Source of the DNA: a virus
Reading direction: 5' to 3' (one strand)
Length of the DNA: 32,369 nucleotides
Virus record (IMG/VR): IMGVR_UViG_3300045930_000231
Span: 1 to 32,369 of that record
Part shown: one piece after another, positions 5,437 to 30,076 of the stretch
Layout of the letters: the number at the start of each line of letters is the position of its first letter
How positions within the stretch are numbered: the stretch's first letter is position 1
Notes under the pieces: model-generated
Databases searched by the model: none
Seen by the model: the letters and a program-made list of their open reading frames with translations, nothing else
What the model was told of the DNA's origin: nothing
Program-made: the position numbers and the translations under genes

Positions 5437-6075
5437 TCACGATGCGAACTCCACGTGCTCCAGCGCTTCGTTGCCCCAGGTGTCCCACCCCAGCCGTTGG
5501 CGACGGGCGAACAGTTCGAGGTACGGGCCAGGGCTGACTTGCTCCACGAGGTCGAGGAACGCGTCCGGCTTCGCGCTGTGGGCGATGTGGCCGTTCTCAT
5601 AGGGGCGGCTCCATCCGAACCAGGACGAGTCGTGGCGCTGCGCGTTCTGTCGACGGGCGCTTCCGCGTCGCGCTAGGAGAACGAACTCCGTGGTCGACGT
5701 GAACATGCCGCCGAATCCGATCCCCATTGGCGGCTTGGCCCATACGAGTAGCTGTGAGGGCTTGAACCCCCACGCACGGGCAATGCCGTACGTCTGCTCG
5801 ACGTAGCGGTTGGTTGTCCAGAGGTATAGATGGCAACCGTCGCCGGCAGCAAGATCACGCACCGGAAGCGCTCCGATCTCGTCTAGCGTCATGGTCGCGT
5901 AGGGAAGCGAGACCGACCCTCCGCGGTGTCGTCCCCACCACGTGCCGTCGACTACGCGGCCCGACTTGGACGTATAGACCCCGCGGCTGTCGGTCTCGCC
6001 GCGTGTCGTCTTGCCCGTGTTCGGCATCGGCCATGGCGGGTCTGCGACGATGGTGCGGTACTTGCCCGCCGCCAC
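5437..6075 (-). CDS. MT-A70 family DNA (adenine) methyltransferase
   Basis: DPPW at residues 12-15 (VADPPWPM) is the catalytic motif of MT-A70/N6-adenine methyltransferases, and VWAKPPMGIGFGGMF with the C-terminal PGPYLELFARR follow as expected for the fold. The length of 212 aa is typical. Phage enzymes of this type methylate phage DNA, protecting it from host restriction or marking promoters. The gene begins three bases after the integrase stop and ends 35 bp before the attP core. No cognate restriction enzyme is seen, so it is an orphan. Confidence 0.9.
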   Translation of the reverse strand: MAAGKYRTIVADPPWPMPNTGKTTRGETDSRGVYTSKSGRVVDGTWWGRHRGGSVSLPYATMTLDEIGALPVRDLAAGDGCHLYLWTTNRYVEQTYGIARAWGFKPSQLLVWAKPPMGIGFGGMFTSTTEFVLLARRGSARRQNAQRHDSSWFGWSRPYENGHIAHSAKPDAFLDLVEQVSPGPYLELFARRQRLGWDTWGNEALEHVEFAS

Positions 6076-6078
6076 GCC

Positions 6079-7134
6079 CTACTCCTCGTCCCCGTACAGC
6101 CCGCGCAGCGCCGCCGCCAGGTCGTCAGTGTCGAGATGCGCGTACCGGGCCGTCGAACGAATGTCGGCGTGGCCGAGCAGTTGCTGCGTCAGCTTGAGGT
6201 TGTGGCTGTCGCGCAGGAGCTCGGTCGCGGACGTGTGCCGGCCCCGGTGCATGTTCGTCCCCGCGGTCGTGCCCTTTGTGACGACACCGGCGCGCTCGAG
6301 GCACCGGTACCACCAGAAGTGAGCGATCTTCGGGGTGGGCCGCTTGTCATGCCGCCGGGTGGTCACGTCGGCGTAACCGACCTGCTGGCCGCCGATCGTG
6401 AGGGTCTCGGTGGCGTCCTCGAGGTCGACCTTCCGTCTGCGCGTGTCGGAGTGGTAGAGCAGCCAGTGGTCGGGTTGCCAGCCGAGCAGCGACAGCTCCT
6501 CGACCTTCAACCAGAGCACGTCGTCGACCAGCGGCAGCCAGTGGATGCGGCCGCCCTTCGTCTTGACGCGCATCTGTTGGCGCTCGAAGTCGAAGTCCCG
6601 TAGCCGGGCGTTGACGACCCCGGACCGCCTGAGCCCGTACCGCAGGATCAGGGTGCAGCCCACCCAGTCGGCCGGGTAGGTTTGCGAGCCGATCACGTTC
6701 GCGACGAACGAAGGCGGGAACGTGTCGATGTCCACGTCCACGGCCTTGGGCCGGCGGATCGCCAGCGCGGGGTTGCCGACCATGCCTCGTTCGCGGCAGC
6801 ACCACGAGAAGAAGTCCCGGTAGATCGACAGGACCTTCGACCGGGTGCGCGGTGACCGTTCCCCGTACTGGTGCTCCCACGCCTCGCGGACACGCTCGGT
6901 ACCGACGGGGGGCTCGAGGTCGGGGAGCTCGAGGTCGGCGAAGAACAGCGCCAGGTGGGCGAGGGGCGGCTCGTAGTCGCGCAGGGTCTCCGCTGCTGCG
7001 CCCCACTCAGTCTTCTTCCACCTGTAGTAGCGCGCGACTTCGAGGCCGAGTGGGGTCGCTCGGTAGGAGCGATCCTTCACGGCGTCGCGGAGCACTCTCG
7101 CAGCCTCGGCGAGGTCGTGCAAGGCGGCGCTCAC
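6079..7134 (-). CDS. int: Tyrosine recombinase, phage integrase
   Basis: The 351-aa protein has an N-terminal SAM-like core-binding domain (about 40-115) and a C-terminal catalytic domain. Catalytic residues are visible: R169 in RYGLRR, K193 in KTKGG, H296 and R299 in MHRGRHT, H322 in LLGHAD, and Y331 in ARYAHL. It should integrate and, with a directionality factor, excise the prophage at the attP 0.7 kb away. The start is GTG at 7134, with a GTGA overlap to the upstream gene. It is inside the early operon, away from the repressor. Confidence 0.96.
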   Translation of the reverse strand: MSAALHDLAEAARVLRDAVKDRSYRATPLGLEVARYYRWKKTEWGAAAETLRDYEPPLAHLALFFADLELPDLEPPVGTERVREAWEHQYGERSPRTRSKVLSIYRDFFSWCCRERGMVGNPALAIRRPKAVDVDIDTFPPSFVANVIGSQTYPADWVGCTLILRYGLRRSGVVNARLRDFDFERQQMRVKTKGGRIHWLPLVDDVLWLKVEELSLLGWQPDHWLLYHSDTRRRKVDLEDATETLTIGGQQVGYADVTTRRHDKRPTPKIAHFWWYRCLERAGVVTKGTTAGTNMHRGRHTSATELLRDSHNLKLTQQLLGHADIRSTARYAHLDTDDLAAALRGLYGDEE

Positions 7135-10304: not shown

Positions 10305-10567
10305 GAGGTCTCCTTTGATGGGGGGTCGAGCGCGCCCTTACTGGTGGGCGTCCCGGGGAGGTGGGACGGGGCGCGCTCGACGAGGGAGACGCGTGCCAGG
10401 GGCGCGGAGAAGCTCCCCCGGCGCGGCGTGACGTCTCCCTCGTCCAACGCGTCGTCGAACCCTTCGATCGTCAGCTGCGGCTGCGTCGCGACCCATGTGC
10501 GGTGCGCGCCGTTCACGGCGAGGTAGTAGTCGCCTGGATCCCACCCGTGCGCAGCTGGAGGGGTCAC
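10301..10567 (-). CDS. Hypothetical 88-aa early protein
   Basis: The N-terminal 45 residues (GWDPGDYYLAVNGAHRTWVA) look like a small folded domain, while the C-terminal half is Pro/Ser/Thr-rich and coincides with a large inverted repeat in the DNA (10325-10381). The start at 10567 overlaps the ribbon-helix-helix gene by 4 bases (GTGA type). Function is unknown. The tail may be shaped by the RNA or DNA structure rather than by protein needs. Confidence 0.62.
   Translation of the reverse strand: MTPPAAHGWDPGDYYLAVNGAHRTWVATQPQLTIEGFDDALDEGDVTPRRGSFSAPLARVSLVERAPSHLPGTPTSKGALDPPSKETS
10325..10381. repeat. Large GC-rich inverted repeat inside an early gene
   Basis: GTCGAGCGCGCCC (10325-10337) and GGGCGCGCTCGAC (10369-10381) are a perfect 13-bp inverted repeat. 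Immediately inside, CGTCCC (10349-10354) and GGGACG (10363-10368) add six more pairs, leaving an 11-base bulge and an 8-base loop. This would make a very stable hairpin in the leftward early mRNA. No T-run follows, so it is not a classical terminator. Confidence 0.7.
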
Positions 10568-10755
10568 GCGGGCACGTCCTCTCGCGTGGCCTCCTCATCA
10601 ATCCCTTCCAGGTACTTCCGTACCGCGAGGCGCACCTCAGCAGCAACCGTTCGCTCATGTTGCTTCGCAAGCTCGCGAAGCCGCTCGACCATCTCGGCAT
10701 CCAGCCGAGTGGTTACGACCTCATCCTTTGTCTCAGACCTTGCACGCAACGACAT
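10564..10755 (-). CDS. Ribbon-helix-helix (Arc/CopG-type) DNA-binding protein
   Basis: The 63-aa protein has a short beta strand (EVVTTRLDAEMVERL) followed by two helices (RELAKQHERTVAAEVRLAVRKYLEG), the standard RHH fold of small phage regulators. It is the first gene of the leftward early operon, divergent from the repressor gene with only 49 bp between the starts, so it occupies the Cro/Arc position. The ATG at 10755 lies inside CACGCAATG, one arm of an inverted repeat. No ribosome-binding site precedes it, which suggests a leaderless or nearly leaderless transcript. Confidence 0.82.
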   Translation of the reverse strand: MSLRARSETKDEVVTTRLDAEMVERLRELAKQHERTVAAEVRLAVRKYLEGIDEEATREDVPA

Positions 10756-10789
10756 TGCGTGGCACCGTATACGAAACCAACACGCAATG
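10753..10789. promoter_or_regulatory. Divergent promoter/operator region of the lysogeny switch
   Basis: CATTGCGTG (10753-10761) and CACGCAATG (10781-10789) are a perfect 9-bp inverted repeat. Between them is the 8-bp palindrome CGTATACG (10766-10773), which reads as a TATACG -10 element in both directions. A further ACGCAA half-site is at 10744-10749. For the leftward promoter TTGCAT (10793-10788) may serve as -35, at short spacing. This is the only intergenic space between the RHH and repressor genes, so it is the expected operator. Confidence 0.65.
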
Positions 10790-10804
10790 CAAGGGGGACG
10801 AAAC

Positions 10805-11281
10805 GTGACTGCGGCGACAAACCCTCGCAACGTGCGTACTTTGCGCACCCATGCGCTCGTGGCAGAACTGATGGCCGAGATCAGCAAGATCGGCGTTGCG
10901 CAGCGGATCGCGCAAGCGCGCGGGGAAGCGGGCCTAACTCAGGCGGAGCTCGCGGACATCATGAACGTGCACCCCAGAACGGTTCAGAACTGGGAGTCGC
11001 AGACGAATCCGAGGATGGAGTTCAACCGCCTCGACGAACTCGGCGGGGTCCTAGCCACTACGAAGTTCTGGTTACTTCATGGAGCGGAGCTACCAGGTTC
11101 AGCAGAGGACGCCGCGACACTGGCGGAGATTCTCCGCCGCCTCGGAGCACTCGAAGAGCAGGTCGAGGCCCAGGGGAAGGCGACGACAACCAGTGTGGAC
11201 GCTCTGGCAAGGGATCTCCGTGCTCTAACGCTTCGGCTAGCGCCTGAAGATGGTCGAGCCACGAAGGCAGCGACTCGGTGA
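10805..11281 (+). CDS. XRE-family phage repressor (CI-like)
   Basis: The 158-aa protein has a helix-turn-helix at about residues 31-66 (RIAQARGEAGLTQAELADIM ... RTVQNWE) and a C-terminal coiled coil (about 101-148) instead of a self-cleaving S24 peptidase. It should hold the prophage silent by binding the adjacent operator; without the peptidase, induction cannot be by RecA-stimulated self-cleavage. The GTG at 10805 follows AAGGGGG; an ATG at 10787 in the same frame would put that site inside the gene. It is one of only two plus-strand genes. Confidence 0.85.
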   Translation: MTAATNPRNVRTLRTHALVAELMAEISKIGVAQRIAQARGEAGLTQAELADIMNVHPRTVQNWESQTNPRMEFNRLDELGGVLATTKFWLLHGAELPGSAEDAATLAEILRRLGALEEQVEAQGKATTTSVDALARDLRALTLRLAPEDGRATKAATR

Positions 11282-19780: not shown

Positions 19781-19809
19781 CTCTTCTCCCTATGCACGTA
19801 GGTCGCAGA

Positions 19810-19837
19810 GCACCGGGTCGCGTGCACAACCCGGTGC
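19810..19837 (-). terminator. Hairpin after the major tail protein gene
   Basis: GCACCGGGT (19810-19818) and ACCCGGTGC (19829-19837) form a perfect 9-bp stem with a 10-base loop, 14 bases past the major tail protein stop and before the chaperone. There is no T-run. It could reduce readthrough or protect the 3' end of an abundant mRNA. Confidence 0.6.
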
Positions 19838-19851
19838 CCCACGCTTGTCGG

Positions 19852-20268
19852 TTACGTCCAGTTCCCGACCGTGATCCCGGTAGCGTCCGCCGGGTCAGCC
19901 GTGAACGGCATCACCGACACGCCGCCAACCGTGTTCGTCGGACCGAACGTGTTGATCACACAGTTCCCGCTGTAAATCTCGCGGGTCGCGTCCACCAGCC
20001 CGTCCGGCTGCCACGTGATCACGCACGTCGTCTTGGCCGCGTGCAACGGCTGAACGATCAGCCCGAGTTCCTCGGTGTAGAACGCCTCGCCGACGAACTG
20101 TTGTTCCGTCACACCCGGAAGCGTCTCCCGGTTGCCGGTCGCCGAGAACCCCGTCACGTCCTCGGTCGTGTTGGTGGACGAGAGTCCGAACTCGCGGAAC
20201 GAGTTGGACACGTCCGTGCCGTCAATGGTGATCTTGTCGTGACGGCTGATCTTCTTCGTGTATGCCAC
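19852..20268 (-). CDS. Major tail (tube) protein
   Basis: The 138-aa protein is beta-rich (KISRHDKITIDGTDVSNSF, TEEDVTGFSATGNRE-like segments) and lies just before a hairpin and the chaperone genes, the standard place of the tail tube subunit. A strong AAAGGAG lies upstream of the GTG at 20268. The size is at the small end for siphovirus tube proteins. A hairpin follows the gene, as also after the capsid gene. The upstream enzymes may modify it; that is inference. Confidence 0.8.
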   Translation of the reverse strand: MAYTKKISRHDKITIDGTDVSNSFREFGLSSTNTTEDVTGFSATGNRETLPGVTEQQFVGEAFYTEELGLIVQPLHAAKTTCVITWQPDGLVDATREIYSGNCVINTFGPTNTVGGVSVMPFTADPADATGITVGNWT

Positions 20269-20272
20269 GGTC

Positions 20273-20482
20273 CTACTCCTTTCCCTGCTTCGATTGCCAG
20301 CCGTCCGGCAGTGTCCAACTACCCGGCTGCACTTCCGGCGTGATGACCCGCAGCAACTTGATGTCGCCGCGGGCGATCGCCCTCGCTTCGGCGCCCCTGT
20401 CGAGGCGCGCCTCGAACACCGACCCGGGCGAATGCCCGCGGTACTCCCGTTTCCCGACCACCCGGTATTCGCCCATCGTCAC
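20273..20482 (-). CDS. Small protein before the major tail gene
   Basis: The 69-aa protein begins YRVVGKREYRGHSPGSVFEA and has a basic, SH3-like beta character, a common short actinophage protein found in the head-tail region. The GTG at 20482 overlaps the glycosyltransferase stop as GTGA; the ATG at 20476 is a second candidate. It ends four bases before the major tail start. It may be a head/tail accessory; no function is known. Confidence 0.68.
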   Translation of the reverse strand: MTMGEYRVVGKREYRGHSPGSVFEARLDRGAEARAIARGDIKLLRVITPEVQPGSWTLPDGWQSKQGKE

Positions 20483-21222
20483 GCCGCCACCAACGCGCCG
20501 TGGTACGCGCGCATCTCGTCGAGCGCTTCGGCGGGATACAGGTCGGCGAGCTCGTCGAACGGATCACCGAGCGACGCCCCACGCCAGCGCGTCGTTACCG
20601 TGTCGAAGCTGTTGACGTTCTCCGCGGACTTCCAGTCCACGATCTGCCGCGGGTCGGACGTCCGGTGCTCAACCCGCAACTGAGGGTAGGCGCGCTGCAT
20701 GTTGACGAGGATGCTCGTGTCGCACCCGCGCGGCCTGTCCTCGTCCGCCGGCCGGTACTTCAAGATCCGCAGCAGCGAGCGTGGCCAGATGCGGATACCC
20801 GCGCCGCCGGGGTACGTCAGGTGGCACGCCTGGATGTCGCGCCCGTCCTCGCGCACGAATGACATGTGCGGGAACCCGACCACGGTACGCGTGTCAGGGA
20901 GGTCGACGAACAGCCGCCAGTCCACCCAGTCGTCGGTGCCGCAGGGCACCACGTAGTCCGCGGGATACTTGTTGTAGGTGGGATCCATGGCGAGCTGTAT
21001 CCCGTCGTTGAACTTGCGGGACAGGAACCGGTTGTCACGACGAACGATCCCGAACCCCAGCTCGTGGGCGGTGTCCATGTTCTCGTCGTCGGCGATCACC
21101 ACGGCGGTCGCCTCGACGCCCTCCTGTTCGAGCGCGTCACAGGTGCGGCGCAACTGGCGGAGACAGATGCGGGCGAGCTCCAGCCTCCCGTGAGCCGGGA
21201 CAACGAACCACAGGCTTTGCAT
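20479..21222 (-). CDS. GT-A fold glycosyltransferase-like protein
   Basis: The 247-aa protein opens with a nucleotide-sugar-type strand (LWFVVPAHGRLELARICL), then ADDEN (about 45-49) and a probable DxD/DDW motif, D97-D98, in VPCGTDDWVDW. This is the layout of GT2-like enzymes. The substrate cannot be told. It is the last of four enzyme genes placed between the tail terminator and major tail protein. It is preceded by a deacetylase and followed by GTGA. A role in glycosylating the virion or modifying the host cell wall is inferred. Confidence 0.75.
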   Translation of the reverse strand: MQSLWFVVPAHGRLELARICLRQLRRTCDALEQEGVEATAVVIADDENMDTAHELGFGIVRRDNRFLSRKFNDGIQLAMDPTYNKYPADYVVPCGTDDWVDWRLFVDLPDTRTVVGFPHMSFVREDGRDIQACHLTYPGGAGIRIWPRSLLRILKYRPADEDRPRGCDTSILVNMQRAYPQLRVEHRTSDPRQIVDWKSAENVNSFDTVTTRWRGASLGDPFDELADLYPAEALDEMRAYHGALVAA

Positions 21223-21981
21223 CTAGACCGTGACCTCGGCGAACGCGTGCGACCACCAGTCCGGATGCACCAGCACGTGCAGCTGACCGTGGCCGAACCG
21301 CCGCACGACCGTGTCAAACCGCTGCGACCACTTCCCGCCCGAATCCGACAGGTAGTCGTCGCGGCCCAACCAGTTCGCGTCGTAGTCCAACCCGTACACC
21401 TCGCGCGACACCGGCTCTAGCTCCACCTTGACGCCCTTGTGCTCGAGCGTCCGGCGCGCCATCCCCACCGACGGCCGCGGGCATTCCACGAACATCTCGT
21501 CCTGTATGAACAGCGCCTTGTGGCACAGGTCGTGTCCGTGCGCCACCGACCCGTGCACGCGGACGGCGGTGCGAAGCTCGGCGATGGCTTCGGACAGGAT
21601 CATGTGCGGGTCACCGCCGGTTTGCAGCGCGACCGCGAGCGCGTTGACGTGAATGCCGATCTCGTGGCCGAGCTCCTGTATCTCCTCCGCAACGATCAGC
21701 ATCTCCTCGGCGCGACCCGGTGCCGGCCAGTAGTACGACCCGTGCAAAAGGAAGTACGTGGACGAGTAGCCGTGATCGAACTCCCACCGCGCCATGTGCA
21801 GCGCCGTGTGAAGCGACCCCTTCGACTCGTTGTCGTCGACGTCGTGGCGTAGCCCAATCACCCGCGCGCCGGTGTCTCCCATGAACACGTCGCGCATAGG
21901 CACGACCCGGTCGGCGATCGAGAGCAGCCGCGCGTCGAGTTCCTCGAGGTCGTCCGGACGGAACGGATGCTGAGCCCTCAC
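21223..21981 (-). CDS. NodB-like polysaccharide deacetylase-fold protein
   Basis: The 252-aa protein has the NodB metal-binding signature in order: RHDVD (D47, D49), GHEIGIH (H106, H111), and HPDWW (H239) near the C-terminus. These match metal-dependent carbohydrate N- or O-deacetylases. The GTG at 21981 overlaps the previous stop as GTGA and agrees with the domain start; the longer frame upstream is antisense noise. The substrate may be a phage glycan or host polymer; neither is shown. Confidence 0.82.
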   Translation of the reverse strand: MRAQHPFRPDDLEELDARLLSIADRVVPMRDVFMGDTGARVIGLRHDVDDNESKGSLHTALHMARWEFDHGYSSTYFLLHGSYYWPAPGRAEEMLIVAEEIQELGHEIGIHVNALAVALQTGGDPHMILSEAIAELRTAVRVHGSVAHGHDLCHKALFIQDEMFVECPRPSVGMARRTLEHKGVKVELEPVSREVYGLDYDANWLGRDDYLSDSGGKWSQRFDTVVRRFGHGQLHVLVHPDWWSHAFAEVTV

Positions 21982-22472
21982 GCTTCCCTCGTCAGCACGA
22001 GCCAGTTGATGCCGCCGCGCGCGTTTCGTTGGAACAGCGAGTCCGTCCACCCGTCCGGCACCGTGTAGTCCATGCCGTCCACGTGTGTCACCGTGACAAC
22101 GTCACGGGCAAGCTGGCACCAAAGATCCAACGAATCGAGGCTCCGTCTTGCAGGGTCGCCGGTGAACGTGTCGACGCTGACGGCATCCCACTGCATGCCC
22201 TCATCTCGGAACGAGACTGCGAGGTCCCACGCGTCACCCTGCCGTCCCACCGAACCCTCGTAGATGTCCGCCATTTCGTGGACGCGGTCCGCGATATCGA
22301 CGAGCGTGATTCGCATGCTGTTCCGGGCCATGTGGATCGCGTCGTTCACCCCGTAGAACCGCGCCGCGAACAGGCACAGACCGGTCCCGCCCTCGCGCAG
22401 CAGATGGGCCGGATAGACGCGCGCTTCGCGTGACAGCTCGCCCAACCGGCCGTCGAGGACTACGGGAGCCAC
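21978..22472 (-). CDS. Rossmann-like protein, possibly a SAM methyltransferase
   Basis: The 164-aa protein has a segment RITLVDIADRVHEMADI, then WDAVSVDTFTGD, an alternation of strands and acidic loops resembling class I methyltransferases, but the glycine-rich SAM-binding loop is not clear. The GTG at 22472 overlaps the acyltransferase stop by 13 bases, with GGAGG inside the upstream gene. It lies in a cassette of sugar- and cell-wall-type enzymes. The methyltransferase call is tentative. Confidence 0.55.
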   Translation of the reverse strand: MAPVVLDGRLGELSREARVYPAHLLREGGTGLCLFAARFYGVNDAIHMARNSMRITLVDIADRVHEMADIYEGSVGRQGDAWDLAVSFRDEGMQWDAVSVDTFTGDPARRSLDSLDLWCQLARDVVTVTHVDGMDYTVPDGWTDSLFQRNARGGINWLVLTREA

Positions 22473-23104
22473 GCGACCTCCTGCTCACGGAACCCGAGAC
22501 GTGACTTGAACTCCCGCAGCCCGTCCTCGCCGGAGTCCCACCGGTTGTAGACGACAACGCCGCGGCCGTGCGCGACCTCGCGGCCGAGCGCGTAGTCGAA
22601 CAGCAGGAACATGATCTCGTCCGGCTCGTACGTGCCGTGTCCGAGGATCTGCGACACGAGCGCGAGGTCGCCGACCCGGTACATGGTCAGGTACGCGACG
22701 AGCCGACCGGACTTGCTCCACACCCCGGACGTGCGGATCGCGTGACGGCAGCACTGGTAGTCCGGCAGCGGCCCGTAATAGGTGCGTGTGACGTAACCAG
22801 ACGCCATCTGACGGCCTTGCCGGTGTGTCTTGGACGTGTTGATCGCGTGGATTTCGTCGGTGTGCAGATCGCGCGACAACGGCTCGGCGTGGTAGCCACG
22901 TCGTTCGGCTCGGCTGGCCCGCTTCCGTGCCGTCCGCCGCTCCGCGCGCCACTCGTCGACCGAGCCGGGGATCTCCATCACCGCGCACTCCTGGTACCGG
23001 CCCGATCCCATCTGCTCGAGCATCGGTCGCGCGAACGGCGCGCACCGCTCGTCGACTGTGCAGCCAACCTCAAGGGAGATTCCGACAGCCACCATGGTGC
23101 TCAT
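22460..23104 (-). CDS. FemAB/GNAT-like acyltransferase
   Basis: The 214-aa protein has an Arg-rich helix (DEWRAERRTARKRASRAERR), then INTSKTHRQGRQM, a two-strand core (LVAYLTMYRVGDLALVSQIL) and a conserved C-terminal GFREQE. This recalls acyltransferases of the FemAB/GNAT superfamily. The ATG at 23104 overlaps the tail terminator stop as ATGA and excludes an antisense extension. It might acylate or aminoacylate a glycan, peptidoglycan precursor or virion protein. It is the first gene of the four-enzyme cassette. Confidence 0.7.
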   Translation of the reverse strand: MSTMVAVGISLEVGCTVDERCAPFARPMLEQMGSGRYQECAVMEIPGSVDEWRAERRTARKRASRAERRGYHAEPLSRDLHTDEIHAINTSKTHRQGRQMASGYVTRTYYGPLPDYQCCRHAIRTSGVWSKSGRLVAYLTMYRVGDLALVSQILGHGTYEPDEIMFLLFDYALGREVAHGRGVVVYNRWDSGEDGLREFKSRLGFREQEVAWLP

Positions 23105-23547
23105 GAGTAGGCGGGCAGGACTCGGAGGGTGAACTGGAACCCGTAGTAGCCGCCCTCGTAGATCACCTCTCCGGACGGGTCTGTGCAGTCGAGCGACGCG
23201 GCGAGACCACCGAGCGTCGGGTCGTCGTCCAGCGCGGCGGCGATGCACAGGCTGTCGGCGTCGTCCATCAGCCGGTACAGGATCCGCTGGTGCGAGTCGT
23301 AGTCGTTCGCCGACAGCCGCGCCCGGACTGTGAACAGGTATCCGCCTCCGTCGGTGTCGTCCGAGAACATTTTCGATTCGGTGTCACGTCCGACACCCGG
23401 GTACATGTCGATCGCCGGGGTTGTCGCGGGAACGTTCAGCCGGCCCGAGTGAAACTGCGACTCAACGTTCTCCGCGGCCAGCAGCATGCCGACGGTCCCT
23501 TCGATCTGTTCCATGGCGGCGTCCATCAGGTCAACCAGTCCGCTCAC
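23101..23547 (-). CDS. Tail terminator-like protein
   Basis: The 148-aa protein has a helical N-terminus, MYPGVGRDTES, then GGYLFTVRARLSANDYDSH and a C-terminal strand (GGYYGFQFTLRVL), a pattern of phage tail terminator proteins. Its position after the connector gene fits. The GTG at 23547 overlaps the connector stop as GTGA. It should cap the tail tube and join it to the head. Confidence 0.72.
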   Translation of the reverse strand: MSGLVDLMDAAMEQIEGTVGMLLAAENVESQFHSGRLNVPATTPAIDMYPGVGRDTESKMFSDDTDGGGYLFTVRARLSANDYDSHQRILYRLMDDADSLCIAAALDDDPTLGGLAASLDCTDPSGEVIYEGGYYGFQFTLRVLPAYS

Positions 23548-24191
23548 GCGAACCCCTGCTGACCCTTCAACGGCCCCAACGTGATGGCGTGCTTCAGGAA
23601 CGTGTCACGCGCAATCCGGGTCGCTCCGAAATCCCCTGCGAGCTCCACGATCCCGAACTGAATCTCCTGCAGCTTCCACAACTCCGCGGCACGCTCTAGA
23701 TTCACCTGGGTTGCCAACATGATCTGCCACCCGGTCAGCGCGTCAGCGTCGTCGGCCAGGTCGATGTAGCTGTTGATTTCGCCGGCAGCGGCGATCAGCA
23801 CCCGCTCCGCTGCGTCAACCTGCGCGTCAGTCGGAGACCCGATCTTGAGGATGCGGAACAACTCGTCCACCGACGCGTACGCCGTGGTTTCGTCCGGGTC
23901 GGTGTTCTGGATCGGCGCCGTCGGGATCGACTCGTCGCCGTTGCCGTCAACGAAGATGATCCGGTACCACAACTCGAGGTCGTCGGATGCTAGTTCGGTT
24001 GTGAAGTCACGGGACGCAGGGTCGGACGGGTCCGCGTCGACCGGCGACAGCGGGATCGTTTCGAGCTCCGTCCACACCGTCGTGTCGCTCAACGTCGACG
24101 TGTCCGACTCCTCGATCCTGGCGTCCGTCCACGGGGTCGCGTCATACCGCGGGATCGGCGTGAAGTCCTCGAACGAAATGACCTGTGCCAT
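23544..24191 (-). CDS. Head-tail connector protein with an N-terminal Fn3-like domain
   Basis: The 215-aa protein has two parts. Residues about 1-100 are beta-rich and resemble a fibronectin type III fold (WTELETIPLSPVDADPSD ... LWYRIIFVDGNGDES). Residues about 105-215 are helical, with ASVDELFRILKIGSPTDAQVDAAERVLIAAAGEINSYI, typical of gp6-like/adaptor head-tail connectors. The fusion would place an Ig-like domain at the neck. The ATG at 24191 follows the upstream stop directly. Confidence 0.78.
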   Translation of the reverse strand: MAQVISFEDFTPIPRYDATPWTDARIEESDTSTLSDTTVWTELETIPLSPVDADPSDPASRDFTTELASDDLELWYRIIFVDGNGDESIPTAPIQNTDPDETTAYASVDELFRILKIGSPTDAQVDAAERVLIAAAGEINSYIDLADDADALTGWQIMLATQVNLERAAELWKLQEIQFGIVELAGDFGATRIARDTFLKHAITLGPLKGQQGFA

Positions 24192-25121
24192 TTAGCTCAC
24201 GCTCCCGATCTTGTGGCGGGCGATACGGCCGGACCCCATCGCGCCAACCCGTCCGCGGTGCATCACGGCGATCCGTCCGGGCCGGTTAGCCGGGAAGGTC
24301 AGCCCGACGATCACACCGTTCGTTGTTGCGCCGAACACGACCGTGCCTGTGCTCCCGGCGAAGTGCTGTGCCGTCCCGACCGTGGTGACGTTGAACACCA
24401 GCGTCGCCGCCGAGGACCCGAACGTGTGGCGTGTCCCGACCGTCGTGGACGAGAACGCGATGGTGGCCGCAGACGACCCGAACGTGTCCTTGGTCGCGGA
24501 CGTCGACGCGGCGAACACCAGCGTGGAGGACGACGACCCGCTGATGTTTCCGGCGGTGTTGCCGTCCGACACCGCGTCGAACACAAGCGTGTTCGTGGAC
24601 GACCCGAACGCTTCGATCGCCGCCGCAGTCGTCGCGGTGAAAGCGACGGTGCCCGAGCTCGCGCCAAGCGCGATCCGCACACCCGACGTTGTCGCTGAAA
24701 ACACCAGCGTGTTGGTGGACGAGCCGAACGCCGTCAGCTTCCCCACGGTCGTGGACGAAAAAGCGATCGTGCCGGACGACGCACCGAACCCTGTGCGGGT
24801 TCCCGCTGTCGTGGACGAGAACACAAGCGTCGACGACGACGCACCCGCTACCGACCGCGTGCCGTTAGACGTGGCGTCGAATACCAGCGTCGCGGTGGAC
24901 GCGCCGAGCGCGATCCGAACCGCTGACGTGGTGGAAGAGAACACAAGCGTGTTCGTGCTCGAGCCGAACGTCAGCTTCGTAGCTGCCGTGGTTGAGTCGA
25001 ACACAAGCGTCGAGGACGAGGAGCCGAAATGGGTGACCGGTCCAGCCGCGACCGTGTCCGGCCGGAGCGGCTTGTAGTACCGGTGGTCTAGCGGCCGGAG
25101 CCTGTAGACGCCGCCGTACAA
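24192..25121 (-). CDS. Protein of about 12 tandem 20-residue beta repeats
   Basis: Residues about 31-270 consist of about twelve repeats of 19-22 residues with a shared core G(S/A)S-x2-T(L/I/V)(V/A)F-x2-TT. A polar N-terminus and a basic C-terminus (RPGRIAVMHRGRVG) flank them. The pattern suggests a beta-solenoid or fibrous stalk. The start is TTG at 25121 with GGGAGGAG upstream. It lies in the accessory block after the capsid gene, so a head fibre or decoration is a reasonable guess. Confidence 0.78.
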   Translation of the reverse strand: MYGGVYRLRPLDHRYYKPLRPDTVAAGPVTHFGSSSSTLVFDSTTAATKLTFGSSTNTLVFSSTTSAVRIALGASTATLVFDATSNGTRSVAGASSSTLVFSSTTAGTRTGFGASSGTIAFSSTTVGKLTAFGSSTNTLVFSATTSGVRIALGASSGTVAFTATTAAAIEAFGSSTNTLVFDAVSDGNTAGNISGSSSSTLVFAASTSATKDTFGSSAATIAFSSTTVGTRHTFGSSAATLVFNVTTVGTAQHFAGSTGTVVFGATTNGVIVGLTFPANRPGRIAVMHRGRVGAMGSGRIARHKIGSVS

Positions 25122-27204: not shown

Positions 27205-28353
27205 CTAGTGGCAGGGTTCGTTTCTGACCACAGACGTGACCGCATAGTTGGAATCAATCGTGACGATCTGTGCCTCCCACGGATTGATCGTGGAACATGA
27301 CGTCACATCGATCGGGCCGAACTCCCAACTGTTGTTCACGACTCGCAGCCCGGTCACTGATCCCGGCATACCCAGACGGAACGAGAACCCCTGCCCCATC
27401 ACCAAGAGACGGTCGACCGTGACGCTGCCGATGTTCCCCTGGCCTCCCGGATACCAGAACGGGGCTGTGCCGCCGCAGCCGGGAACGTTGGGCGTCATGT
27501 CGATCGTTGTGTTCCGGACTGTCAGGCCGGCGGCGGTGTACCCCTGGATTCCGTCTCCGTGCCAGTCGCCACACGTCGGTGTCGGCGGCGTGATCTTGGC
27601 GTAGCTGTCCTCGATCGTGACCGGCCCGCACACCTGGTTGCTAGCCACGCGGAAACCTTCGTTGCGGTTCTGGATCTTCACCCGACGCGCCGTATAACCG
27701 CCATATGAGACGACGCCTTCGCCGTCGTTCGTGGCGGCTCCCGGTGCGCGCGGCAGAATCGACACGTCCTCCACCAGCAGACCGTTGCCGCATGTAGAGC
27801 CCACGTGGTTGTTGATCATCCCGCCGAGAATCTCGACCCGGCGGATCACGACGTTCTGACCGGTGACACGGATGTCAGCTCCGTCAGTCAAACGCACGTC
27901 CTGGAGCACTTGTCCGTTCTGGCTCAACGTGATGTCGCTCGAGGTCGTGGTCTGCGGCACCCAACCGGCAGGGACACCCGTGGTCGACGGGTTCGGGAAC
28001 TGACCGGAGGACGGCGGACTCGGTGGAGGCGGCGGAGGCGGGGGAGGCGGGGCCACCGGGTATCCGGCACGACCGTCGCTCAACAGGTCTTCGACCTCGT
28101 AGCAACGCGACTCGCACCCAGTCACCTTCGCGAACGTCACCGACGTCCTATTGGGATCCCACGTGTGCGAGACCCGCTGACCGTTCGCGAAGAACACATA
28201 CCCGACCACCCCGGACTGCTGATCCCAACCGAGCGTGATCCGGCTCGAGGTTTGCGACACCAGCCGCAGCTCGAAGTCCGCGCCCGCCGCAGACACGGTG
28301 AGCACAAGAAAGGCCGCTCCCGCGGCCCCAGCGAAGCGGATCCCGGGACGCAT
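27205..28353 (-). CDS. Secreted-type Fn3/poly-Pro/beta-helix protein
   Basis: The 382-aa protein starts with a clear Sec signal peptide (RFAGAAGAAFLVLTVSAAGA), then an Fn3-like domain (about 26-95), a linker of about ten consecutive prolines, and a right-handed beta-helix-like region (about 145-370) with strands spaced as in pectate-lyase-type proteins. A signal peptide on a gene between capsid and connector genes is unusual. It could be an exported depolymerase or adhesin, or a host gene captured by the phage. The ATG at 28353 follows the previous stop directly. Confidence 0.8.
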   Translation of the reverse strand: MRPGIRFAGAAGAAFLVLTVSAAGADFELRLVSQTSSRITLGWDQQSGVVGYVFFANGQRVSHTWDPNRTSVTFAKVTGCESRCYEVEDLLSDGRAGYPVAPPPPPPPPPPSPPSSGQFPNPSTTGVPAGWVPQTTTSSDITLSQNGQVLQDVRLTDGADIRVTGQNVVIRRVEILGGMINNHVGSTCGNGLLVEDVSILPRAPGAATNDGEGVVSYGGYTARRVKIQNRNEGFRVASNQVCGPVTIEDSYAKITPPTPTCGDWHGDGIQGYTAAGLTVRNTTIDMTPNVPGCGGTAPFWYPGGQGNIGSVTVDRLLVMGQGFSFRLGMPGSVTGLRVVNNSWEFGPIDVTSCSTINPWEAQIVTIDSNYAVTSVVRNEPCH

Positions 28354-28825: not shown

Positions 28826-30076
28826 TTACGAAGCCGTGGTGATCAGCGAGAACGCGCCGTCGTCCACGACTGCTGCCTCGAACGCGCCGACGAGGCCGAC
28901 CTCGACACCGGCGATCGCCGGTTCCGACACGAACATCCGGACGGGTGCCCCGGCGTTCTCCGCGACAAGCAGCCCGTCGAGGTCACCGACGATGATCTCG
29001 CCGGCGTTCAGTCCACGCGACACGACGACCCGGAGCGGGCCGATTGCGCCCTGGCCGACGTCGATGAACTGTGAGAACGCAGCCGACGTCATCCCGAGCA
29101 GATACCCGAACCGGTCCGGCGCCATGATGATCGCGTTCGCGATCCTGCCGCTGTTCGCGAATACCTCGCCGTACCCGGCGCCGACCGCCGCGAGGAACGT
29201 CGCGAAGTCCGCCGACGTCGCGATCGGGCTCGAGACGTTGTTCAGGAACGCGGACGCAGAGACGACCGTGGCGGCGTCGGTCTCGGTCTTGAGCGCGTAG
29301 TCAGCGGCGATCGCCCTGAACCACAGGTCGAACGCCGACGGGGTTGAGAACTCGATCGCCTGCCAAGACAGGTTGCCGCCACCGAGATACGTGGTCGCGG
29401 TCTTCGTGACCATCGACACGTCCATCCCGGTGTTCCCGGCCTCGGTCTTCTGTGTGCCCTGGGCGGCAACGACCGGGGTTGCGTCGAGCTGCGGATACGT
29501 GACCGTGAGTTGCGTCAGCGTCGTCCGAGTCCCTGCCGCTTCGACCAGCGGCCTGCTGGAGTTCAGCACCTGGAAGATCTGCGCTAGATGCTGCGGCGGG
29601 CTGAGGCCGGCGATGTCCGACGTCAGCGTGCTTGCGGGTGCCCGCTCGAACGCCTCGAGCCGCTGCTCTGCCTTCTGAATCTCCGAGGTCGGAACCCCTG
29701 CGGCAGAGACCGCGCCTCGGGCATGGATGCTCTTGTGCGTGAGGAGCTGGTCGATCGCGATCTGACCGAGCGACCGGTAGATGACCTCGCCGTCCGGTCC
29801 CATGTCCGCGACACCACGCGCCGCGAGCGTTGCACGGCGCATCGCCTCGGACGCCGCGGCGGCGTTCCGGTCGGACGTGACCTGATCCGACCACACCGCG
29901 ATTTCGCCGTCGTAGTAGGCGAGGTCGGACCGGTACTTAGCGAGCGTCTCGTTTTGCGTTGCGTCCGGTGTCTTCCCGTCGAGTTCCTCGAGCAGTTGGC
30001 TCATCTTGCCGTGAACGATTTCCCGCGCGTCTACGCGGTTCTGGAGCGTCCGCTCCGTGGCTGTGTCAGCCATCAC
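28826..30076 (-). CDS. Major capsid protein (HK97 fold)
   Basis: The 416-aa protein follows portal and protease genes. The N-terminal 110 or so residues are a charged coiled coil (ERTLQNRVDAREIVHGKM ... SDQVTSDRNAAAA), the scaffold-like delta domain removed by the prohead protease. The rest has the HK97 pattern: a mature part with AFERAPAST..., beta-rich LTVTYPQLDATPVVAAQGTQKTEAGN, and a C-terminal GPLRVVVSRGLNAGEIIVGD. GTG at 30076 and ATG at 30073 both overlap the protease stop. Confidence 0.92.
   Translation of the reverse strand: MMADTATERTLQNRVDAREIVHGKMSQLLEELDGKTPDATQNETLAKYRSDLAYYDGEIAVWSDQVTSDRNAAAASEAMRRATLAARGVADMGPDGEVIYRSLGQIAIDQLLTHKSIHARGAVSAAGVPTSEIQKAEQRLEAFERAPASTLTSDIAGLSPPQHLAQIFQVLNSSRPLVEAAGTRTTLTQLTVTYPQLDATPVVAAQGTQKTEAGNTGMDVSMVTKTATTYLGGGNLSWQAIEFSTPSAFDLWFRAIAADYALKTETDAATVVSASAFLNNVSSPIATSADFATFLAAVGAGYGEVFANSGRIANAIIMAPDRFGYLLGMTSAAFSQFIDVGQGAIGPLRVVVSRGLNAGEIIVGDLDGLLVAENAGAPVRMFVSEPAIAGVEVGLVGAFEAAVVDDGAFSLITTAS

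Follow-up and report, generated by a model that had tools for sequence, protein, structure and literature searches.

Virion glycosylation is already known in a few isolated actinophages, where it involves glycosyltransferases (GTs) and a methyltransferase. In the Corndog-group (cluster O) mycobacteriophages, an O-methyltransferase and three GTs are encoded in the head operon, between the portal and protease genes, and these glycan enzymes are reported to modify the capsid and tail tube (PMC11600133, PMC12363180). In another setting, Orf11 of the BD-12 pathway, a GNAT-fold enzyme, is reported to use Gly-tRNA to turn the amino-sugar compound streptothrisamine into glycylthricin (PMC12945691). 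Here we report a four-gene cassette within the tail genes of IMG/VR record IMGVR_UViG_3300045930_000231, a siphophage-type virus of an uncultured lineage; the whole analysed stretch of 32,369 nucleotides (nt) is hereafter referred to as the window. The cassette encodes a GT, a deacetylase and an acyl- or aminoacyl-transferase, as an initial annotation made from the sequence had proposed, together with a fourth protein that has a methyltransferase (MTase) fold, and the genes are co-inherited. We favour the reading that they form the core of a glycan-assembly pathway expressed with the virion structural genes, in which a glycan is built, de-N-acetylated, and re-acylated or aminoacylated. To the known actinophage systems, the cassette would thereby add a deacetylate-then-reacylate step. 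It is a core component of a metagenomic lineage that has no member in the isolate collection we searched, and it shows swapped modules. A handful of recombinant enzymes would be enough to test the chemistry of phage coats and what that chemistry does in adsorption, stability or immune recognition.

Organization of the cassette

The four genes lie co-directionally on the minus strand between the tail terminator gene (23101..23547; phrog_17840, E = 6.9e-6) and the major tail protein gene (19852..20268; weak PHROG matches), an arrangement given in the initial annotation and borne out by the open reading frame (ORF) coordinates. In gene order, they encode a FemX/Sbb17-like GNAT-fold transferase (22460..23104, 214 amino acids (aa)), a class I S-adenosylmethionine (SAM)-methyltransferase-fold protein (21978..22472, 164 aa, GTG start), a CE4/NodB-like deacetylase of the RHDVD type (21223..21981, 252 aa, GTG start) and a GT-A/GT2-type glycosyltransferase (20479..21222, 247 aa). 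A conserved 67-aa ORF on the same strand (20476–20273), absent from the earlier gene list, follows the GT as an extra gene before the major tail protein; 36 homologous ORFs occur in the fetched loci, nearly always between the GT and the major tail protein. Homologues of the major tail protein in two distant relatives, L030 and L035, match phrog_4574 (1.8e-17 and 1.7e-8, respectively). The major capsid protein, which serves as the lineage marker, is encoded at 28826..30076, also on the minus strand; it and the major tail protein are the candidate acceptors considered below.

From the tail terminator onwards, successive genes overlap by 4 nt (ATGA), 13 nt and 4 nt (GTGA). The deacetylase and GT genes merely abut (TAG|ATG), so that the earlier description of stop–start overlaps throughout holds for three junctions and not for this one. 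We found no promoter- or terminator-like sites in 19800–24300. Given these overlapping or abutting junctions and the lack of such sites within the stretch, the four genes appear to belong to the late structural operon.

Conservation and co-variation among related phages

When searched singly, none of the four proteins was recognized by Pfam, PHROGs or NCBIfam, and the deacetylase, GT and GNAT-like protein had no tblastn match in 50,697 phage genomes. Homologues were gathered from IMG/VR and aligned by family (about 30 GNAT, 28 deacetylase and 42 GT sequences). The order tail terminator–GNAT–MTase–(GT)–deacetylase–GT–67-aa ORF–major tail protein recurs in about 27 non-redundant contigs with few local rearrangements, and the cassette is real beyond chance, because the 27–42 homologues of each gene keep the same order. 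The GNAT and GT genes accompany the deacetylase in each of its 27 contigs, and the MTase-fold gene does so in 26.

To avoid ascertainment through the cassette itself, we fetched a second sample of contigs by their major capsid protein and counted a locus as informative when the tail terminator was present with at least 1.5 kb beyond it. The 26 informative loci, which partly overlap the first contig set and have the most similar capsid proteins, all carry the GNAT and MTase-fold genes; the deacetylase is present in 23, and the remaining three contigs end too early. The cassette is thus core in the lineage of the window phage, the lineage to which this claim is limited. In L030, whose capsid protein is more distantly related, the GT and the 67-aa gene are the only two of these genes present. 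As the initial annotation noted, homologues that never co-occur would argue against a shared pathway; our gene-neighbourhood search found them together in fixed order, and a single pathway shared by the cassette genes is very likely.

Relatives have further genes, namely a second GT (GTb) and, at that same position, a third GT or bona fide methyltransferase; a profile search found no second GT in the window. In a distant phage, the gene immediately after a GT homologue encodes a PIG-L GlcNAc-PI-type de-N-acetylase (L032:1859–3090; 3.8e-7), which apparently substitutes for the deacetylase without being homologous to it. Two unrelated deacetylase folds adjoining homologous GTs point to N-acyl removal as a recurrent step. 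In four other distant phages (L029, L035, L039 and L041), the genes after the homologous GT encode methyltransferases and a WbqC protein.

Local rearrangements were seen as well. The major tail protein gene lies between the capsid and adaptor genes in L007 (4797–5189) and L028 (2421–2813), where the GT and 67-aa genes stay paired downstream of the cassette. In L091, the GNAT–MTase–GTb–deacetylase block sits upstream of the portal gene, and the GT and 67-aa genes remain before the tail terminator. L058 carries the head–tail adaptor gene in duplicate, and the roughly 3 kb that separate the copies hold a GT-like fragment and fibre-like genes.

Pairwise identities of the cassette enzymes correlate weakly overall, which shows that single enzymes are exchanged between phages while gene order is kept; L022, for example, shares 67% identity with the window in the deacetylase and 32% in the GNAT-like protein. 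Values listed for a window GTb in this comparison belong to the L002 protein, which had taken the place of the missing gene, and they are disregarded. We tested co-variation with Mantel tests over 21 gene pairs in 15 loci with all genes (the window has no GTb of its own). GNAT, deacetylase and GTb co-vary (rho 0.33–0.50, Mantel p 0.001–0.002), whereas GNAT and the directly adjoining MTase show no significant co-variation (rho 0.17, p 0.06), which makes physical linkage alone a poor explanation of the pattern. For the first GT, co-variation was seen with the tail terminator (rho 0.43, p 0.01) but with none of the other enzymes. Across the 21 pairs, results at p = 0.001 survive the number of tests, and those at p = 0.01 are suggestive. 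We infer from this pattern that the first GT makes an invariant link to a structural protein, and that GTb, the deacetylase and the GNAT-like enzyme tailor the outer part of the glycan.

Enzyme classes of the four proteins

Family profiles, structural models and conserved residues together let us assign the enzyme classes with high confidence. In the GT family, 10 of the 42 homologues match Glycos_transf_2 (best 1.7e-5), although the window GT alone has no match, and the family matches the putative glycosyltransferase of PDB entry 3bcv at 6.4e-4, the only hit in PDB sequence searches with profiles of 3 members and of 28–42 members. The predicted GT-A enzyme with an acidic D97-D98 motif is supported by this family match and by the alignment of 42 sequences, in which D97 is invariant and D45 nearly so.

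The deacetylase family matches PF01522 proteins by hhalign (Prob 94, E = 1.2e-7) over a span from motif 1 to motif 2, with controls below 1%, and one cellular relative weakly matches the ArnD model. The residues D47, D49, H106, H111 and H239, correctly numbered in the initial annotation, are invariant in the 28 phage homologues, as is H148. D47 and D49 correspond to the motif 1 Asp-Asp of CE4 enzymes (the catalytic base and metal Asp), so that both this pair and the profile similarity uphold a NodB-like assignment. H106 and H111 do not form the canonical CE4 metal pair: the HxxxH pair is absent, as residue 115 is Leu, and H106 is the histidine of a GHE segment. H148 and H239 are further invariant candidates for the metal site. 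Because the HxxxH pair is missing, we classify the enzyme as CE4-like rather than canonical CE4. We found no signal peptide or transmembrane segment in its sequence or hydropathy profile, so it should act in the cytosol, unlike the secreted peptidoglycan deacetylases.

We made AlphaFold2 models of the GNAT-like and MTase-fold proteins. The structures closest to the GNAT-like model (pLDDT 95.6) are Sbb17 and Sba18, followed by FemX, FemA and MprF (Foldseek/VIA; Z up to 14.9 over 187–193 residues). The alignments cover 175–193 residues of these 285–402-aa enzymes, and the phage protein, at 214 aa, appears shorter than two full GNAT domains. Sbb17 and Sba18 are aminoacyl-tRNA-dependent peptide synthases whose structures were solved with streptothrisamine. 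In addition, 7 of the 30 homologues match Acetyltransf_6 (best 1.3e-4), and hhalign aligns the family with a FemAB/Acetyltransf_6 set over 150 columns (Prob 76.5, E = 2e-5; controls below 1%). K200, in a GL..(F/Y)K motif, is invariant in the 30 aligned sequences and present in six Chloroflexota sequences, and the GL..FK motif with this lysine is common to the FemAB proteins L189 and L191. A review names the FemX/DhpH-C lysine as the key residue (PMC12945691). An aminoacyl-tRNA donor is a tentative proposal, less likely than not; a QILGHG string in the window protein and some homologues resembles a CoA motif and would fit a CoA donor.

The model of the 164-aa protein (pLDDT 93.8) most closely resembles methyltransferases (best Z 16.4, 3c0k). 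In the family alignment, D59, which follows strand 2, is invariant together with D96 and D101, and the glycine-rich motif I (GxGxG) was not found, the consensus there being LFAAAFxGxNDA. As this motif is missing, we describe the protein as methyltransferase-fold only. The former label of a Rossmann-like protein gives way, on the basis of the model and structure comparison, to a class I SAM-methyltransferase fold. A candidate identity as UDPG_MGDP_dh_N (best 5.7e-4) was dropped, as the top structural matches were methyltransferases.

Cellular relatives and other features of the window

In a scan of 84,980 prokaryote species for the deacetylase, six of the seven Chloroflexota relatives have a GNAT relative as their immediate neighbour; at the seventh, the locus stops 244 nt past the gene. 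A GNAT-anchored search in this phylum found the deacetylase at all three loci, in the same three genomes that occur in the deacetylase-anchored set. The neighbouring genes, judged by eye, resemble polysaccharide export and GT genes. On mostly proteobacterial chromosomes (Alphaproteobacteria and others; L145–L185), relatives of the RHDVD-type deacetylase have WbqC no more than a few kb away at 21 loci; this pairing, with WbqC also following GTs in the distant phages, may hint at the function of WbqC. One contig of an Actinomycetota metagenome-assembled genome (L134) carries the cassette in full, and among 396 genomes of that phylum this is the only one with a strong GNAT match.

The window encodes a tyrosine integrase (6079–7134, minus strand; PF00589, 1.7e-15). 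An ORF at 10361–11281 on the plus strand resembles XRE-type repressors in its C-terminal part; from these two predicted genes, the phage is classed as temperate. Near the integrase, an ORF with a DPPW motif (5437–6075, minus strand) resembles, by that motif, MT-A70-type DNA adenine methyltransferases. Upstream of the tail terminator, 24192–25121 (minus strand) encodes a 309-aa protein of Ser/Thr-rich repeats (GSSSSTLVFDSTT...) that matches phrog_19041, a virion structural protein (2.7e-11), and is sparse among relatives. Also inside the structural operon, the 382-aa product of 27205–28353 (minus strand) begins with what resembles a signal peptide and contains a poly-proline stretch; most of its neighbours have homologues in the roughly 50 related loci, but this protein has none.

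Proposed pathway and its probable target

In the proposed pathway, the GT2-type enzyme would attach an N-acetylated, GlcNAc-like sugar to a virion protein, most likely the tail tube and/or the capsid. In many relatives, though not in the window, the gene content includes a second and sometimes a third GT, which would extend the glycan. The cytosolic CE4-like enzyme would then strip an N-acetyl or N-formyl group and expose an amine, to which the FemX/Sbb17-like transferase could add an amino acid taken from aminoacyl-tRNA, or a different acyl group. The protein with the SAM-methyltransferase fold may methylate the product. Swapping individual enzymes between phages without altering gene order would diversify the surface decoration. 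In its most specific and speculative form, which we put forward with considerable doubt, the virion would bear an N-aminoacylated amino sugar, made by the GT, the de-N-acetylase and an aminoacyl-tRNA-dependent FemX-like enzyme, and single-enzyme swaps would vary the coat much as O-antigens vary.

That the acceptor is a virion protein is probable, because the cassette occupies a late-operon site, its GT or the whole cassette adjoins three head modules, it contains no membrane or export genes, and the Corndog group offers a precedent. The head modules are that of the window lineage, one with a phrog_267 head protein and scaffolding (L038, L041) and one with phrog_2263 (L035). The foremost alternative, which we consider unlikely, is lysogenic conversion or superinfection exclusion: the cassette would alter a host envelope glycan, with a lipid-linked precursor deacetylated and re-acylated, and so change a receptor or the surface charge. 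The integrase supports this alternative, as do the Chloroflexota and proteobacterial deacetylase relatives, which lie in apparent surface-polysaccharide clusters with GNAT or WbqC neighbours, and the FemX and MprF relatives of the transferase, which act on cell-wall or membrane substrates. Against an envelope target, the genes overlap within a late structural operon and have no promoter-like site of their own, the cassette encodes no flippase, polymerase, initiating transferase or membrane protein, and in the relatives seen it tracks the head and tail modules rather than the integrase. An improbable variant keeps the same pathway and makes the acceptor a fibre or decoration protein of the operon, such as the 24192–25121 product, with its Ser/Thr-rich repeats and virion structural match, or the products of fibre-like genes; a fibre-like structural gene family lies by the cassette in 11 related loci, and in several of these it sits between the deacetylase and the GT. 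Among relatives with an intact cassette, such candidates vary or are missing (24192–25121 has only five homologous ORFs), whereas the capsid and tail tube are universal.

Phages also glycosylate and acylate DNA bases, with GNAT-fold enzymes such as Mom involved, which counts for a hypermodification of phage DNA by glycosylation and amino-acylation of a modified base. We regard this as very improbable: in the neighbourhoods that we examined, the cassette was not accompanied by any gene for a base hydroxymethylase or for nucleotide modification, the cassette sits with head and tail genes, and the deacetylase relatives occur in apparent polysaccharide clusters. Least credible is a set of unlinked cargo genes adjacent by chance. 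The poor overall correlation of enzyme identities and the exchange of single genes would suit this idea, which the present data contradict through retention in all 26 capsid-anchored loci, conserved order, the co-variation of three enzymes and the independent deacetylase–GNAT pairs in Chloroflexota.

Several points weigh against a virion glycan pathway of this kind. The cellular relatives seem to work in surface-polysaccharide neighbourhoods, and a putative cell-surface target would fit these equally well. Owing to the absent HxxxH motif, the predicted metal site of the deacetylase differs from that of canonical CE4 enzymes, and the 164-aa protein, without GxGxG, may not bind SAM. Since the window lacks the co-varying GTb, the sugar acted on here would have to be supplied by the first GT or by the host. 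Furthermore, hhalign of the GT and MTase-fold proteins against single Corndog-group sequences detected no homology (Prob below 1%), in a single-sequence comparison of limited reach.

Comparison with known systems

A comparison with CE4/NodB polysaccharide deacetylases and the ArnD deformylase shows a shared Asp-x-Asp motif, GHEIGxH segment and profile match; unlike these enzymes, the phage protein has no HxxxH pair or signal peptide, RHDVD replaces TFDDG, and single proteins fall under the Pfam cut-off. The GNAT-like protein shares its fold (about 180 residues, Z 13–15) and the GL..(F/Y)K motif with its invariant Lys with FemABX and aminoacyl-tRNA GNAT transferases of the FemX and Orf11/Sbb17 type, but it is shorter and about 10–16% identical to them. 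The Chloroflexota deacetylase–GNAT pairs are chromosomal, with no phage structural genes detected nearby, but resemble the cassette in having a homologous deacetylase (37–39%) with an adjoining GNAT gene. The Corndog-group system differs in its portal–protease location, and no deacetylase or FemX-like transferase is annotated there; the predicted chemistry is different, and this, together with the absence of detectable homology, counts against filing the cassette as that system. In both, however, several glycan enzymes are encoded in the head–tail operon, and the capsid protein of the window is distantly related to that of the Corndog-group actinophages, being 28–29% identical to those of the Corndog-group and MooMoo phages.

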